Shown: piece after piece, positions 18,720 to 24,489 of the stretch | Layout of the letters: each line of letters begins with the position of its first letter | Numbering within the stretch: position 1 is the first letter of the stretch | From: Haloarchaeobius sp. HME9146 | GTDB lineage: Archaea > Halobacteriota > Halobacteria > Halobacteriales > Natrialbaceae | Reading direction: 5' to 3' | NCBI RefSeq assembly: GCF_025399835.1 | Contig: NZ_JAODVR010000001.1 | Coordinates: forward strand, 1,798,001 to 1,862,000 | Length of the DNA stretch: 64,000 bases | Notes under the pieces: model-generated | The model's input: only the letters and a program-made list of their open reading frames with translations | Told to the model about the DNA's origin: nothing | Database searches by the model: none | Program-made: the position numbers and the translations under genes

Positions 18720-19631
18720 ATGACCGCGATAGAAACGCGAGGACTGACGAAAGAATACAACGGGGTGACAGCCGTCGACAGTCTCTCGTTGACGGTGGAG
18801 GAGGGCGAGATATTCGGCTTCCTCGGCCCGAACGGGTCCGGGAAATCGACGACCATCAACATGCTACTGGACTTCGTTCGACCGACGCGAGGGACGGTCT
18901 CTATCTTCGGTCTCGACCCACAGAGCGAGTCGCGCTCCGTCCGGCAACACATAGGCATCGTTCCGGAGGGATACGACCTCTACGACCGACTCACCGCGCG
19001 AAAGCACCTCGAGTTCACCGTCGAGATGAAGGATGCAGCGTGCGACCCCGCCGACATCCTCGAACGCGTGGGGTTGAGCGGGTCCGCCGACCGGGCCGTT
19101 GGCGGCTTCTCGAAGGGGATGCGGCAGCGTCTCGCGCTCGGCATGGCCCTCGTCGGTCGACCCGACCTGTTGATACTCGACGAACCGTCGTCCGGACTCG
19201 ATCCGAACGGCGCACAGGAGATGCGCGAGATAGTGATGGAGGAGGTCGACCGCGGTGCGACCGTCTTCTTCTCCAGCCACGTGCTAGAGCAGGTCGAAGC
19301 CATCTGTGACCGGGTCGGCATCATGCGGAACGGGTCGCTCGTCACCGTCGACACGATAGCGGGACTCCGCGAGGCGACAGGTGGTGGGTCCACCGTCGTG
19401 TTGTCGGTCGACGAGAATCCGACGGACCACGGGCTGGACGAAATCGATGGTGTTTCGGCGGTGACCGTTGGCGACGGTGAGGTGCGGGTCACATGTACGG
19501 ACCCCGGCGTGAAGTCGTCCGTCATCGCCACGGTCGAGGCTGCGGGCGTGTCGGTCACCGACATCTCCGTGGAGGAGGAGTCACTGGCGGACCTGTTCGC
19601 CGAGTACACCACCCAGGAGGTCGACGCATGA
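18720..19631 (+). CDS. ABC transporter ATP-binding protein
   Basis: A 303-aa ATPase subunit: Walker A GPNGSGKST (36-44), Q-loop near VPEGYDLYDRLT, signature SKGMRQRL (normally SGGQ-type), Walker B LLILDEPSSGLD, and an H-loop in VFFSSHVLEQ. The C-terminal extension after about 220 (SLVTVDTIAGLREATGGGSTVVL) is the usual regulatory tail of DrrA/CcmA-type exporters. It is translationally coupled to the permease (ATGA at 19628). The two genes probably export a peptide or small hydrophobic compound; the nearby cysteine-rich precursor gene is one candidate substrate, which is inference from proximity. Confidence 0.92.
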   Translation: MTAIETRGLTKEYNGVTAVDSLSLTVEEGEIFGFLGPNGSGKSTTINMLLDFVRPTRGTVSIFGLDPQSESRSVRQHIGIVPEGYDLYDRLTARKHLEFTVEMKDAACDPADILERVGLSGSADRAVGGFSKGMRQRLALGMALVGRPDLLILDEPSSGLDPNGAQEMREIVMEEVDRGATVFFSSHVLEQVEAICDRVGIMRNGSLVTVDTIAGLREATGGGSTVVLSVDENPTDHGLDEIDGVSAVTVGDGEVRVTCTDPGVKSSVIATVEAAGVSVTDISVEEESLADLFAEYTTQEVDA

Positions 19632-21227: not shown

Positions 21228-21938
21228 ATGTCAGATGGAAATAAGACGCGTGCAAAGCTGCTAGAGAGCATCGGTACGACCGCGGAATCCGCTTCGAAGG
21301 ACCGCCGCGGGTTCATCTCTCAGGCGGTTGCAACGGTCGCTGGTGCTGGCGTTCTCGCCGGGCTCTCCGGCAGCGCGTCCGCAGAGCCGACGACGGAGAA
21401 ACGAAACGGCCCCGGTCACGACCTGGGCAAGCGCCCCGTTGACCTCAAGAAGGCAAAGGCAGGCCTCGCCCAGGCCAAACCGCTTCTCCGACGTCTCGCC
21501 GACGAGGGGTATCTGCCCTCGGCGTCCGCCGACGCCTTCCCGACGCGACCGATGGCCGACAGCGGTAAGGGTGGGATCGGCCGGTACGAGGTCGACGACG
21601 GCAAGAGCGTCCAGACAGTGTACGTGACGTACACGGAGACCGCTCGCGTAACCGTGAACATCCCGCACCACGGGCACGCGTTCGCGATGGTCGCGCCCAA
21701 GGACAGCGACACGAAGGTCATGGTGGACATGCCCGGGAAGGGCCGGAGCGGTGGTGCAGTCGCCAACGCACCCACTGCAGAGGCCTATGAGACGATGGAC
21801 ACCGGTCTGTCCACGCAGAGCTGTGGCGGATGTGTGTGCACCAGCGCACCGTTCTGTGTCTTCAAGAACTTCAAGAAGACGGCCTGTGAGAACCTGGTCG
21901 ACGGCGAGTGTGTGAGCACCTCGTCCTGCGGTTGCTGA
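21228..21938 (+). CDS. Tat-exported precursor with C-terminal 8-cysteine peptide (halocin-like candidate)
   Basis: A 236-aa protein in three parts. A twin-arginine signal (KDRRGFIS, Arg26-Arg27, hydrophobic stretch 33-48, likely cut after ASA at 52) directs export. Residues 53-195 form a soluble domain rich in Lys and Gly without cysteine. Residues 199-236 hold all eight cysteines with spacing C-x2-C-x-C-x5-C-x9-C-x7-C-x5-C-x-C, ending at the last residue. Halocin C8 has the same plan (Tat signal, immunity domain HalI, C-terminal cysteine-rich peptide released by cleavage), but this peptide is not the HalC8 sequence. Function as an antimicrobial is inferred from architecture and neighbours. 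Confidence 0.75.
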   Translation: MSDGNKTRAKLLESIGTTAESASKDRRGFISQAVATVAGAGVLAGLSGSASAEPTTEKRNGPGHDLGKRPVDLKKAKAGLAQAKPLLRRLADEGYLPSASADAFPTRPMADSGKGGIGRYEVDDGKSVQTVYVTYTETARVTVNIPHHGHAFAMVAPKDSDTKVMVDMPGKGRSGGAVANAPTAEAYETMDTGLSTQSCGGCVCTSAPFCVFKNFKKTACENLVDGECVSTSSCGC

Positions 21939-21968: not shown

Positions 21969-22016
21969 TCATTTTTCCAATACCACTCATCAAACATGAG
22001 CTACCATCACCCATGA
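21969..22016 (+). promoter_or_regulatory. TATA-like element and 6-codon mini-ORF overlapping the next start
   Basis: CATTTTTCC (21969-21977) could serve as TATA, predicting a start site near 21996-22003. At 21996 a mini-ORF reads ATG AGC TAC CAT CAC CCA TGA (MSYHHP), and its stop shares ATGA with the ATG of the membrane protein at 22013. This arrangement could couple translation of the main gene to the leader peptide. Evidence is positional only. Confidence 0.35.
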
Positions 22017-22825
22017 CCGGTGCAGCGAACGTATTGATCGAACGATTCGGGAACCCAGAGTACACCGGCGACAGGCGATGTATCCCGTGTACCCTGGTGA
22101 ACACGGCAATCGCCGGTGGTCTGGCACTGACCGCGTGGTGGGCTGGTTCCACCGAGCTAGGTGGCACGGTCTTCGTCGCCTCGCTACTGGTAATCTACCT
22201 CAGGGGCTACCTCGTTCCCGGCACTCCGACCCTGACGAAACTGTACCTTCCAACCGCCGTCCTTCGACTGTTCGACAAACACGAACCGTCACTCACGGCC
22301 GGCACGGCGGGTGACGCGGTCGACACCAGCGCCTGGCTCCGCGAACACGGGCTGGTTTCTCCCTGTGACGACCGGGACGACCTCTGTGTCTCGCCGACGT
22401 TCGAGCGCGCGTGGACCGCAGAGATGGCGGCCATCGACGAGGGTGAGTACGACCGAGGGCTCCTGGTGAACGTCGTCGACGTCGGACAGGACGATGTCGA
22501 GTTCCGGTCGTACGACGACTCGTTCGTCGCCCGTGCGGCGGATACGCGCGTCGCCCAGTGGGAATCTGAGGCAGCCTTCGTCGCCGATGTCGCTGCCGCT
22601 CGCGTCCTCGCCGACCGGGTCGACGGGTGGACGACGCTCTCAGGAGCGGTCCGTGGAGAGTTACTCAACGGGCTTCGTCTCTTCGTCCCGTCCTGTCCGG
22701 CCTGCACAGGGTCGCTCGCGTTCTCCGAGGACACCTACGAGTCGTGTTGTCGAACGCGGGACGTCACGAGGCTCGAGTGTACCTCGTGTGGCGAACTGGT
22801 GCTCGAGCAGTCGGTTGGAGAGTAG
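22013..22825 (+). CDS. Membrane protein with CxxC motifs and C-terminal zinc-knuckle cysteines, partner of the precursor gene
   Basis: A 270-aa protein beginning with a CxxC pair (RRCIPCT, Cys23 and Cys26) followed by two helices (about 27-46 and 50-67). A soluble domain follows (about 80-225). The end carries Cys228-x2-Cys231, Cys245-Cys246 and Cys256-x2-Cys259, a likely zinc ribbon. It lies 74 bases after the cysteine-rich precursor gene, in the same orientation, so it may provide maturation (thiol-disulfide), secretion or immunity. I do not recognise a named family. Third codon positions are GC-rich, unlike the AT-rich upstream region. Confidence 0.7.
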   Translation: MTGAANVLIERFGNPEYTGDRRCIPCTLVNTAIAGGLALTAWWAGSTELGGTVFVASLLVIYLRGYLVPGTPTLTKLYLPTAVLRLFDKHEPSLTAGTAGDAVDTSAWLREHGLVSPCDDRDDLCVSPTFERAWTAEMAAIDEGEYDRGLLVNVVDVGQDDVEFRSYDDSFVARAADTRVAQWESEAAFVADVAAARVLADRVDGWTTLSGAVRGELLNGLRLFVPSCPACTGSLAFSEDTYESCCRTRDVTRLECTSCGELVLEQSVGE

Positions 22826-22854: not shown

Positions 22855-23592
22855 CTACTCGACGATTTCACCCACAGTCGCGTCCCCGTCGATGTCGTAC
22901 CGGGCAGCCCGGAGGGTACCGATCCGTGCTCCCGGACCGACCGTCACCCTGTCACCCTCGACGGTCTCGACGTCGGCGTGTTCGATCTCGATGTGCTCGC
23001 CGACCACGCGGTCCGAGACGAGGAAGCCGTCTTGCTCCCCGCGCCTGATGGTGACGTGGTCTGCCTCGATTGCCTCGACAGCTGACTCGCTGCCGAGCGA
23101 CAGCGAGACCTCGTCGGCCGTGAGCCGGTCGCACTCGATGCCGCCCCGGACCTCGACGGAACCGGCGTGGATACGTCGGCAATCGATAGCTCCGTGGACC
23201 TCGACGGTGTCGGCCGAAATCTCGCCACCCTCCAGCGCGCCGTGGACCGACAACTCGTCGGTAGCCAGGTCGGCGAACTGCCCTGCGCCCTCTATGGAGA
23301 CGCCGGCAGCCGAGGTCGGCCCGTCGACGCCGATGCTGCCGGTCACGGTGAGCGTGTCCGTGTGCAGGGGACCGGTGACGCCAAGCGTCCCGGAACAGGA
23401 GATGGTGTCGGCGTTGACGGGACCGTCGACGCTGACCGGACCGGCGATGTCGGCCTCGGCCGCGTCGAGCGCTGCGGCGATGGAGACCGGTGCGCAGGCC
23501 TCGAACCGGGTGCAGGTGACGGCGTCGTAGTGGGCAGGCTTCGTGACGACGACGGTGTCGCGGTCGATGCTGGTGGGTGTCTTCGTGGACAT
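22855..23592 (-). CDS. Bactofilin-like (halofilin-type?) polymer-forming beta-helix protein
   Basis: A 245-aa protein composed of short repeats of the type GxIxxDxLxVxG, for example DGPVNADTISCSGTLGVTGP, then HTDTLTVTGSIGVDGP and EGGEISADTVEVHGAIDC. Such repeats build a right-handed beta-helix like bactofilins, which polymerise without nucleotide. Archaeal bactofilin relatives (halofilins) are known shape determinants in haloarchaea; whether this is one needs a profile search. There is no signal peptide or membrane helix. It is divergent from the ribbon-helix-helix gene at 23710, and the shared gap holds phased repeats. Confidence 0.7.
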   Translation of the reverse strand: MSTKTPTSIDRDTVVVTKPAHYDAVTCTRFEACAPVSIAAALDAAEADIAGPVSVDGPVNADTISCSGTLGVTGPLHTDTLTVTGSIGVDGPTSAAGVSIEGAGQFADLATDELSVHGALEGGEISADTVEVHGAIDCRRIHAGSVEVRGGIECDRLTADEVSLSLGSESAVEAIEADHVTIRRGEQDGFLVSDRVVGEHIEIEHADVETVEGDRVTVGPGARIGTLRAARYDIDGDATVGEIVE

Positions 23593-23636
23593 GCGTCTAG
23601 CCGATTCGCGCCTGTCCTCTTCAATCTATCCTAGAA

Positions 23637-23666
23637 TGTGAGTCAGTTGTGAGTCTCATGTGAGTT
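23637..23666 (+). promoter_or_regulatory. Three TGTGAGT(C/T) direct repeats at exact 11-bp spacing (likely operator)
   Basis: TGTGAGTC at 23637-23644, TGTGAGTC at 23648-23655 and TGTGAGTT at 23659-23666 are spaced by exactly 11 bp, one helical turn. They sit between the divergent bactofilin-like and ribbon-helix-helix genes, just upstream of the TATA-like AAACTTATG (23676-23684) of the latter. Ribbon-helix-helix repressors bind such phased short repeats cooperatively. Two reverse-complement copies (GACTCACA), also 11 bp apart, are inside the gene at 23845-23863. Confidence 0.65.
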
Positions 23667-23709
23667 AGAGCAGACAAACTTATGTCTGCAGGGGGAGTAG
23701 CTGGAAGCG

Positions 23710-24489
23710 ATGAGCCGAGAGATTCGCATCACGATAGACGACGACGAGGTGTTCGAGCGCATGAAGCGTCGGAAAGAGGCGCTCGACCTGTCGTGGGAGG
23801 AGACGCTGCGTCGCGGCCTGGACCAGGATGGACGAGGCGCAGATGACTCACATAGGACTCACACATCTCCCCGTCGGCCCCCAACCCCACCGGCACCTCA
23901 CGATCCCCGCCGGCACCACCGGCGACGAGGCAGGGGACGGGGAGGCCGCGAGGGCGACGACCAGGCACACGACGAGTTCGGTCCAGGTCACGACGACTTC
24001 GGTGACGTGAACCCGTTCGACCCCGAGTTCCAGGACCGACTCCGGGCACAGATAGAGTCCTCGGTCCAGGAGTCGCTCTCCGGCGTCGAGACCGCGATGC
24101 GCCACGTCGAACAGGTCACGGGCGGGCTGGGCGACGAGATAGACCGTCTCTCGGACGCGGAGGACGCGGTCCTCACCTTCGCCGACCTCCCGGACGACCC
24201 CGAACATCAGGTGCCACTGCGCGTGAACCTCGCGACGAGCGCCGACGGCCTCGATGTCGAGGTCGTCACCATCCGGCAGGGCAAGGGAACTGACGGAATG
24301 AACCGCTTCGCGCAGGGCGACCGGAAAACCATCACTGAAACCATCGCGACCGGCGGGACGGGGCTGCTCCGACTGCAAGACGGCGCGGAGGAGTACGCGG
24401 TCGTCCCGCGGCTCACCTGGGGGCGCACCGGCGACGGCGAGCCCACGGTGACCGGTGTGGAGATCGTCGACGTGGTGTTCGGCGAGTAG
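23710..24489 (+). CDS. Ribbon-helix-helix-like N-terminal domain plus haloarchaeal C-terminal domain
   Basis: A 259-aa protein. Residues 2-38 (SREIRITIDDDEVFERMKRR, then KEALDLSWEETLRRGL) fit a ribbon-helix-helix DNA-binding/dimerisation unit. Residues 95-135 contain a possible coiled coil (FQDRLRAQIESSVQESLSGVETAMRHVEQV), and 150-259 form a beta-rich domain (VPLRVNLATSADGLDVEVVTI). The linker at about 40-80 is rich in Arg, Pro and His with AT-rich third codon positions, while the +1 frame has GC-rich third positions there; a pair of compensating frameshifts is possible. It may regulate its own promoter and the bactofilin-like gene. Confidence 0.7.
   Translation: MSREIRITIDDDEVFERMKRRKEALDLSWEETLRRGLDQDGRGADDSHRTHTSPRRPPTPPAPHDPRRHHRRRGRGRGGREGDDQAHDEFGPGHDDFGDVNPFDPEFQDRLRAQIESSVQESLSGVETAMRHVEQVTGGLGDEIDRLSDAEDAVLTFADLPDDPEHQVPLRVNLATSADGLDVEVVTIRQGKGTDGMNRFAQGDRKTITETIATGGTGLLRLQDGAEEYAVVPRLTWGRTGDGEPTVTGVEIVDVVFGE
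23845..23863 (-). promoter_or_regulatory. Second pair of the phased repeat, inverted, inside the RHH-like gene
   Basis: GACTCACA at 23845-23852 and at 23856-23863 is the reverse complement of TGTGAGTC, again with 11-bp spacing. Its distance from the intergenic array (about 200 bp) would allow repression by DNA looping. It falls inside the part of the gene whose codon usage is abnormal. Confidence 0.5.

Follow-up and report, generated by a model that had tools for sequence, protein, structure and literature searches.

A phased array of TGTGAGT boxes as the probable operator of a single-locus autoregulator in Haloarchaeobius sp. HME9146

A 64,000-nucleotide (nt) stretch of the Haloarchaeobius sp. 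HME9146 genome (contig NZ_JAODVR010000001.1, positions 1,798,001 to 1,862,000; hereafter the window) contains, between two divergent genes, three TGTGAGT boxes at 11-base-pair (bp) spacing. The best explanation, which we consider probable, is that this array serves as operator for a dedicated autoregulator with a single target locus, the 259-amino-acid product of one of the flanking genes, most likely acting as a repressor. The boxes are conserved at, and specific to, the promoter of the regulator's own gene. The features of the locus, in window coordinates, are:

22855-23592, minus strand: divergent bactofilin-like gene (245 amino acids; PF04519, E=2e-4, below the curated cut-off), sharing the intergenic array.
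23620-23629, minus strand: TATA-like element ATAGATTGAA of the divergent bactofilin-like gene, predicted from the sequence, 7 bp from the array.
23637-23666, plus strand: putative operator array, three TGTGAGT boxes with an 11-bp period, found in the sequence and kept in 26 of 27 orthologous loci.
23679-23684, plus strand: TATA-like element CTTATG of the regulator promoter, predicted from the sequence, about 28 bp before the ATG.
23710-24489, plus strand: 259-amino-acid regulator, with ribbon-helix-helix (RHH)-like residues 1-40, variable linker 41-100, long helix 105-149 and C-terminal beta domain 150-257.
23845-23863, minus strand: inverted TGTGAGTC pair, a possible auxiliary operator seen in this genome only, noted from the sequence and the rare codons across the pair.

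The upstream boxes start at 23637, 23648 and 23659 on the plus strand, exactly 11 bp apart, between the divergent open reading frames (ORFs) 22855-23592 and 23710-24489; the inverted pair, also 11 bp apart, lies inside the latter. The initial annotation had described the phased repeats and their distant inverted pair as five copies of the 8-mer TGTGAGTC. The arrangement is present with exactly the 11-bp spacing described, and four of the copies are exact (23637-23644 and 23648-23655 on the plus strand, 23845-23852 and 23856-23863 on the minus strand), but the fifth, at 23659-23666 on the plus strand, reads TGTGAGTT and differs in its last base; all five are exact for the 7-mer TGTGAGT.

Across the whole window the 8-mer is not enriched (27 matches with at most one mismatch, against 66 expected), which marks the cluster as a local feature; five of the eight occurrences of the 7-mer in the window, the two strands taken together, are at the array locus. 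According to Markov models of the window (65% G+C), 0.003-0.02 exact 11-bp dimers are expected by chance in the whole genome on both strands, and another dimer would fall in a further 250 bp with a probability of about 2e-7 to 1e-6, in keeping with the earlier claim that such a cluster is very unlikely to be accidental. The pattern TGTGAGT-N4-TGTGAGT, allowing at most one mismatch, has exactly three matches in the 4.19-Mb genome, all at the array locus, and its reversed control has none in the same scan. A chance repeat or low-complexity sequence, for which the eight window occurrences of the 7-mer might be cited, is refuted for the upstream array by the genome scan and the chance calculation; given also its uniqueness in the genome and its in-register conservation at orthologous loci, this explanation has a negligible probability, and the array is confirmed as real. 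A genome-wide regulon was likewise rejected, the dimer scan of the own genome giving no other locus, with single-box targets not excluded by it.

Orthologues of the regulator gene, about 40-57% identical, lie at 26 other loci (27 loci after removal of duplicates, window included). They occur in about 24 of the 392 genomes of the order, and also in records named Haladaptatus, Halosimplex, Halovenus and Halobacterium. Far from being lost where the gene is kept, the array is found at 26 of the 27 loci as two to five boxes at 11-bp spacing that immediately precede the TATA element and keep a fixed register relative to the start codon (about -73, -62 and -51, or one period fewer). Pairwise identity is 92% in the boxes, a figure inflated by an anchor that fixes eight of the 14 box columns, while the spacer reaches 42% and the upstream flank 29%; box positions 5-7 are still 85-98% conserved, with positions 5 and 6 partly limited by the regular expression. 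At two loci (L017 and L019) the letters have drifted while the 11-bp TGTG period is kept, in four to five copies. The sole orthologue without a normal array is at locus L028 (genome G275). There, four inverted near-boxes at 11-bp spacing lie well beyond the usual place, between -192 and -159 relative to the regulator's start codon.

Boxes and gene also go together between genomes. Among the 392, an exact dimer is present in 17 of the 24 that bear the gene and in 6 of the 368 that do not (Fisher P about 1e-19, which overstates the number of independent events because the genomes are related). In gene-bearing genomes the dimers immediately precede the regulator gene; G275 alone departs from this, its one exact dimer being about 5 kb off. 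Of the seven genomes that bear the gene but lack an exact dimer, most have drifted boxes. The regulator family splits in its tree into clade A (support 0.98), which includes the window, and clade B. The divergent bactofilin-like gene accompanies 12 of the 13 clade A loci, whereas all 14 clade B loci have an adjacent DUF7347 winged-helix gene instead. Since the neighbours differ between the clades while the boxes are the same and only the regulator gene is shared, the product of that gene is the likely reader. Very probably it reads the array to control both its own gene and the neighbouring bactofilin-like gene. Autoregulation through the upstream array, as the initial annotation had proposed, is strongly supported by these sequence comparisons, namely by the presence of the array at nearly every locus, its fixed register to TATA element and start codon, and its specificity to gene-bearing genomes. 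The boxes might instead be read by a transcription factor encoded elsewhere, given that their link to the regulator protein is drawn from sequence and that DUF7347, itself a winged-helix protein, adjoins the gene in clade B; DUF7347 was not found at clade A loci, however, and genomes that lack the regulator gene have only a background level of dimers, and we regard an outside reader as improbable.

An RHH unit is a strand-helix-helix of about 45 residues that dimerises with its strands antiparallel and uses them to contact repeated short DNA boxes; residues 1-40 of the regulator plausibly resemble one. Isoleucine or valine alternates at positions 5, 7 and 9, a helix is predicted from residue 11, and S28-W-x-E/D follows; R3, R6, I7, I9, K19, DDDEVFE, LDLSW and RGL are invariant in nine aligned members. 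The alignment gives a strand-like IRITI and then a helix pattern, where monomer models give coil and then one helix. The anatomy behind the description as RHH-like in the initial annotation is thus plausible, but neither the PF01402 profile nor fold prediction shows it, and several results weigh against it. The RHH_1 profile PF01402 matches 11 other places in the genome (E up to 10) and not the regulator gene, a Pfam hmmscan of the regulator proteins gave no RHH_1 match, the profile comparison with the RHH proteins of the genome is weak (probability 4%), and the AlphaFold2 monomer has one long helix. Weak matches to VAPB_antitox (PF02697) were obtained for five of the nine members (best E 0.015). 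Pentatricopeptide matches of the N-terminus were rejected as spurious, and searches against profiles and solved structures brought no usable match to it.

The C-terminal domain (residues 150-257) is confidently predicted and mostly beta. Its fold matches are middling (Z about 4-5), to PilZ domains, phage tail tubes and baseplates, and may reflect only a common beta arrangement. The matches to PilZ, a cyclic di-GMP domain, were repeated, and the PilZ ligand motif was not found in these residues by eye.

The promoters bear on the sign of regulation. Orthologues have TTTAT or TTAT elements at the place matching CTTATG, and clade A relatives have AGATTTAT or GATTGAA where the TATA-like element of the bactofilin-like gene sits, the array filling the gap between the two divergent elements in this clade. 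The predicted starts of both genes are about 28-31 bp from their TATA-like elements, which suggests leaderless or near-leaderless mRNAs. Clade B loci have one inverted box, at -9 to -6, over the predicted start site, and Halobacterium-type members of clade A have, one 11-bp step on, an inverted TGTGCGT-like box that adjoins the TATA element. These two placements favour repression, and the protein most likely represses its own promoter. Against this, the clade A array is upstream of the core promoter, where archaeal activators such as CdrS also bind (PMC8406309). Most sites bound by CdrS, a haloarchaeal RHH protein, are 41-110 nt ahead of start sites, and repression of cdrS lowers its target ftsZ1 (PMC8406309). 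With the same operator and reader, TFB/TBP would then be recruited from just upstream of the B recognition element (BRE), which would make the autoregulation positive and activate the divergent gene as well. Such activation is the main rival to repression: it is suited by the CdrS precedent and by a clade A array that is upstream of, and adjoins, both core promoters, yet the inverted boxes at the clade B start site and beside the Halobacterium-type TATA element suit repression better, and we consider activation possible though somewhat unlikely.

For a repressor we infer the following mechanism. RHH-like N-terminal dimers of the 259-amino-acid protein would bind the TGTGAGT boxes side by side and cooperatively, and as 11 bp is about one turn, the bound dimers would lie on one face of the helix. 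Placed beside the TFB/TBP site, and in some relatives over it, they would repress the regulator's own promoter; in clade A they would also control the divergent bactofilin-like gene, whose TATA-like element is on the other side of the array. A signal sensed via the C-terminal domain would relieve repression. In the species of the window, the extra in-gene inverted pair may strengthen repression, either by bridging or as a roadblock.

Phased half-sites that place adjacent dimers on one DNA face, often in cooperative autoregulation, are characteristic of Arc, MetJ and other RHH repressors, with half-sites of the Arc/MetJ type being mostly near-palindromic. The regulator differs from these repressors in that sequence homology to them was not found here. 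Another RHH-family protein, the Omega (ParB) repressor of plasmid pSM19035, uses short non-palindromic tandem repeats, direct or inverted, at its own promoter, a single repeat being bound weakly and neighbours cooperating (PMC9499535). Its heptad WATCACW resembles ACTCACA, the reverse complement of TGTGAGT (PMC9499535), and the two systems are alike in having short non-palindromic tandem repeats at the promoter of the regulator's own gene. Omega, however, has 7-10 copies of contiguous 7-bp heptads and a ParA-linked role in plasmid partition, whereas here there are two to five copies with an 11-bp period at an archaeal promoter and no demonstrated homology. An Omega/ParB-type repressor was rejected on the 11-bp period and on there being no ParA among the genes read beside the regulator.

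CdrS and CdrL are also haloarchaeal RHH regulators, and the pattern of CdrL, which has essentially one apparent target region adjoining its own gene (PMC7439475), resembles that of the regulator; the CdrS motif, unlike the box, is symmetric. A CdrS-like RHH gene, recognised by sequence, is present in the own genome at C1:1229955, with a CdrL candidate beside it at C1:1230764. Both are far from the array locus, and membership of the regulator in CdrS/CdrL was rejected. Identity with CdrL, which has an N-terminal RHH and a C-terminal double zinc ribbon and is encoded next to cdrS-ftsZ2, was rejected as well: the regulator has no double-zinc-ribbon match and no cysteine. A literature search with the motif string gave no relevant paper, and CsmR/CirA offered no link.

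The in-gene pair falls within the variable linker, at residues 46-52. The codons across it (TCA CAT AGG ACT ACA TCT) are rare in the window, at 2-7% each, and for the encoded peptide the pair would arise by chance with a probability of about 8e-4. It was found in none of the 26 other orthologous loci, one of which (L015) ends at about residue 37 and is not judgeable; no closer relative for comparison was found among 125 genomes of the family or in plasmid records. The idea that the pair arose when the upstream array was copied in inverted orientation was rejected, as no similarity beyond the boxes was seen by eye. The initial annotation had assigned the array and the pair to a looping operator, and of this proposal the specificity of the pair stands, being too great for a likely accident, whereas conservation is lacking. 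Looping would add to the repression model: protein on the array and on the in-gene pair would bridge about 200 bp and lock the promoter. Only three dimers exist genome-wide and the pair is among them, the chance of a second dimer nearby is about 1e-6, and the predicted long helix could permit higher-order assembly. Set against these points and the rare codons are the absence of the pair from the other loci, centre distances of 186-208 bp with no clear helical phasing, and the fact that the rare codons reach past the boxes (GAT, AGG, TCT), local low-GC sequence perhaps explaining part of them. A roadblock or simple titration would look the same. We judge looping unlikely; it is unproven, and if it occurs at all it is an addition confined to this species.

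Operators have been recognised for only a few archaeal regulators. In the present case sequence alone yielded a regulator that belongs to no Pfam family, together with its box, the rule for box spacing and probable partners (the bactofilin-like gene or DUF7347). Divergent control with the bactofilin-like gene, if true, would be a lead on archaeal cell-shape control, and an in-gene auxiliary operator, if true, would be an uncommon arrangement in archaea. The most far-reaching version, in which an undescribed family with one target locus per genome controls the bactofilin-like cytoskeletal gene and itself from the shared array and this species adds an inverted operator inside the gene, closing a repression loop across ~200 bp of coding sequence, is doubtful as a whole.

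Further genes were noted around the locus. A 236-amino-acid ORF (21228-21938, plus strand) has a twin-arginine-like leader and an eight-cysteine C-terminus, and resembles halocin C8 precursors; it has no match in Pfam, NCBIfam or PHROG. Upstream of it lie ORFs for a permease-like protein and for an ABC-transporter-like ATPase (18720-19631). A 270-amino-acid protein encoded between this halocin-like ORF and the bactofilin-like gene (22013-22825, plus strand) has an N-terminal membrane-like segment, CxxC motifs and no convincing family match, and may be part of the halocin-like cluster. At clade B loci L014, L016 and L012 the DUF7347 winged-helix gene is paired with the regulator and lies downstream of it. 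A glycosyltransferase-like gene comes after DUF7347 at L014 and L016, and a similar-looking gene is just downstream of the regulator at clade A locus L011.
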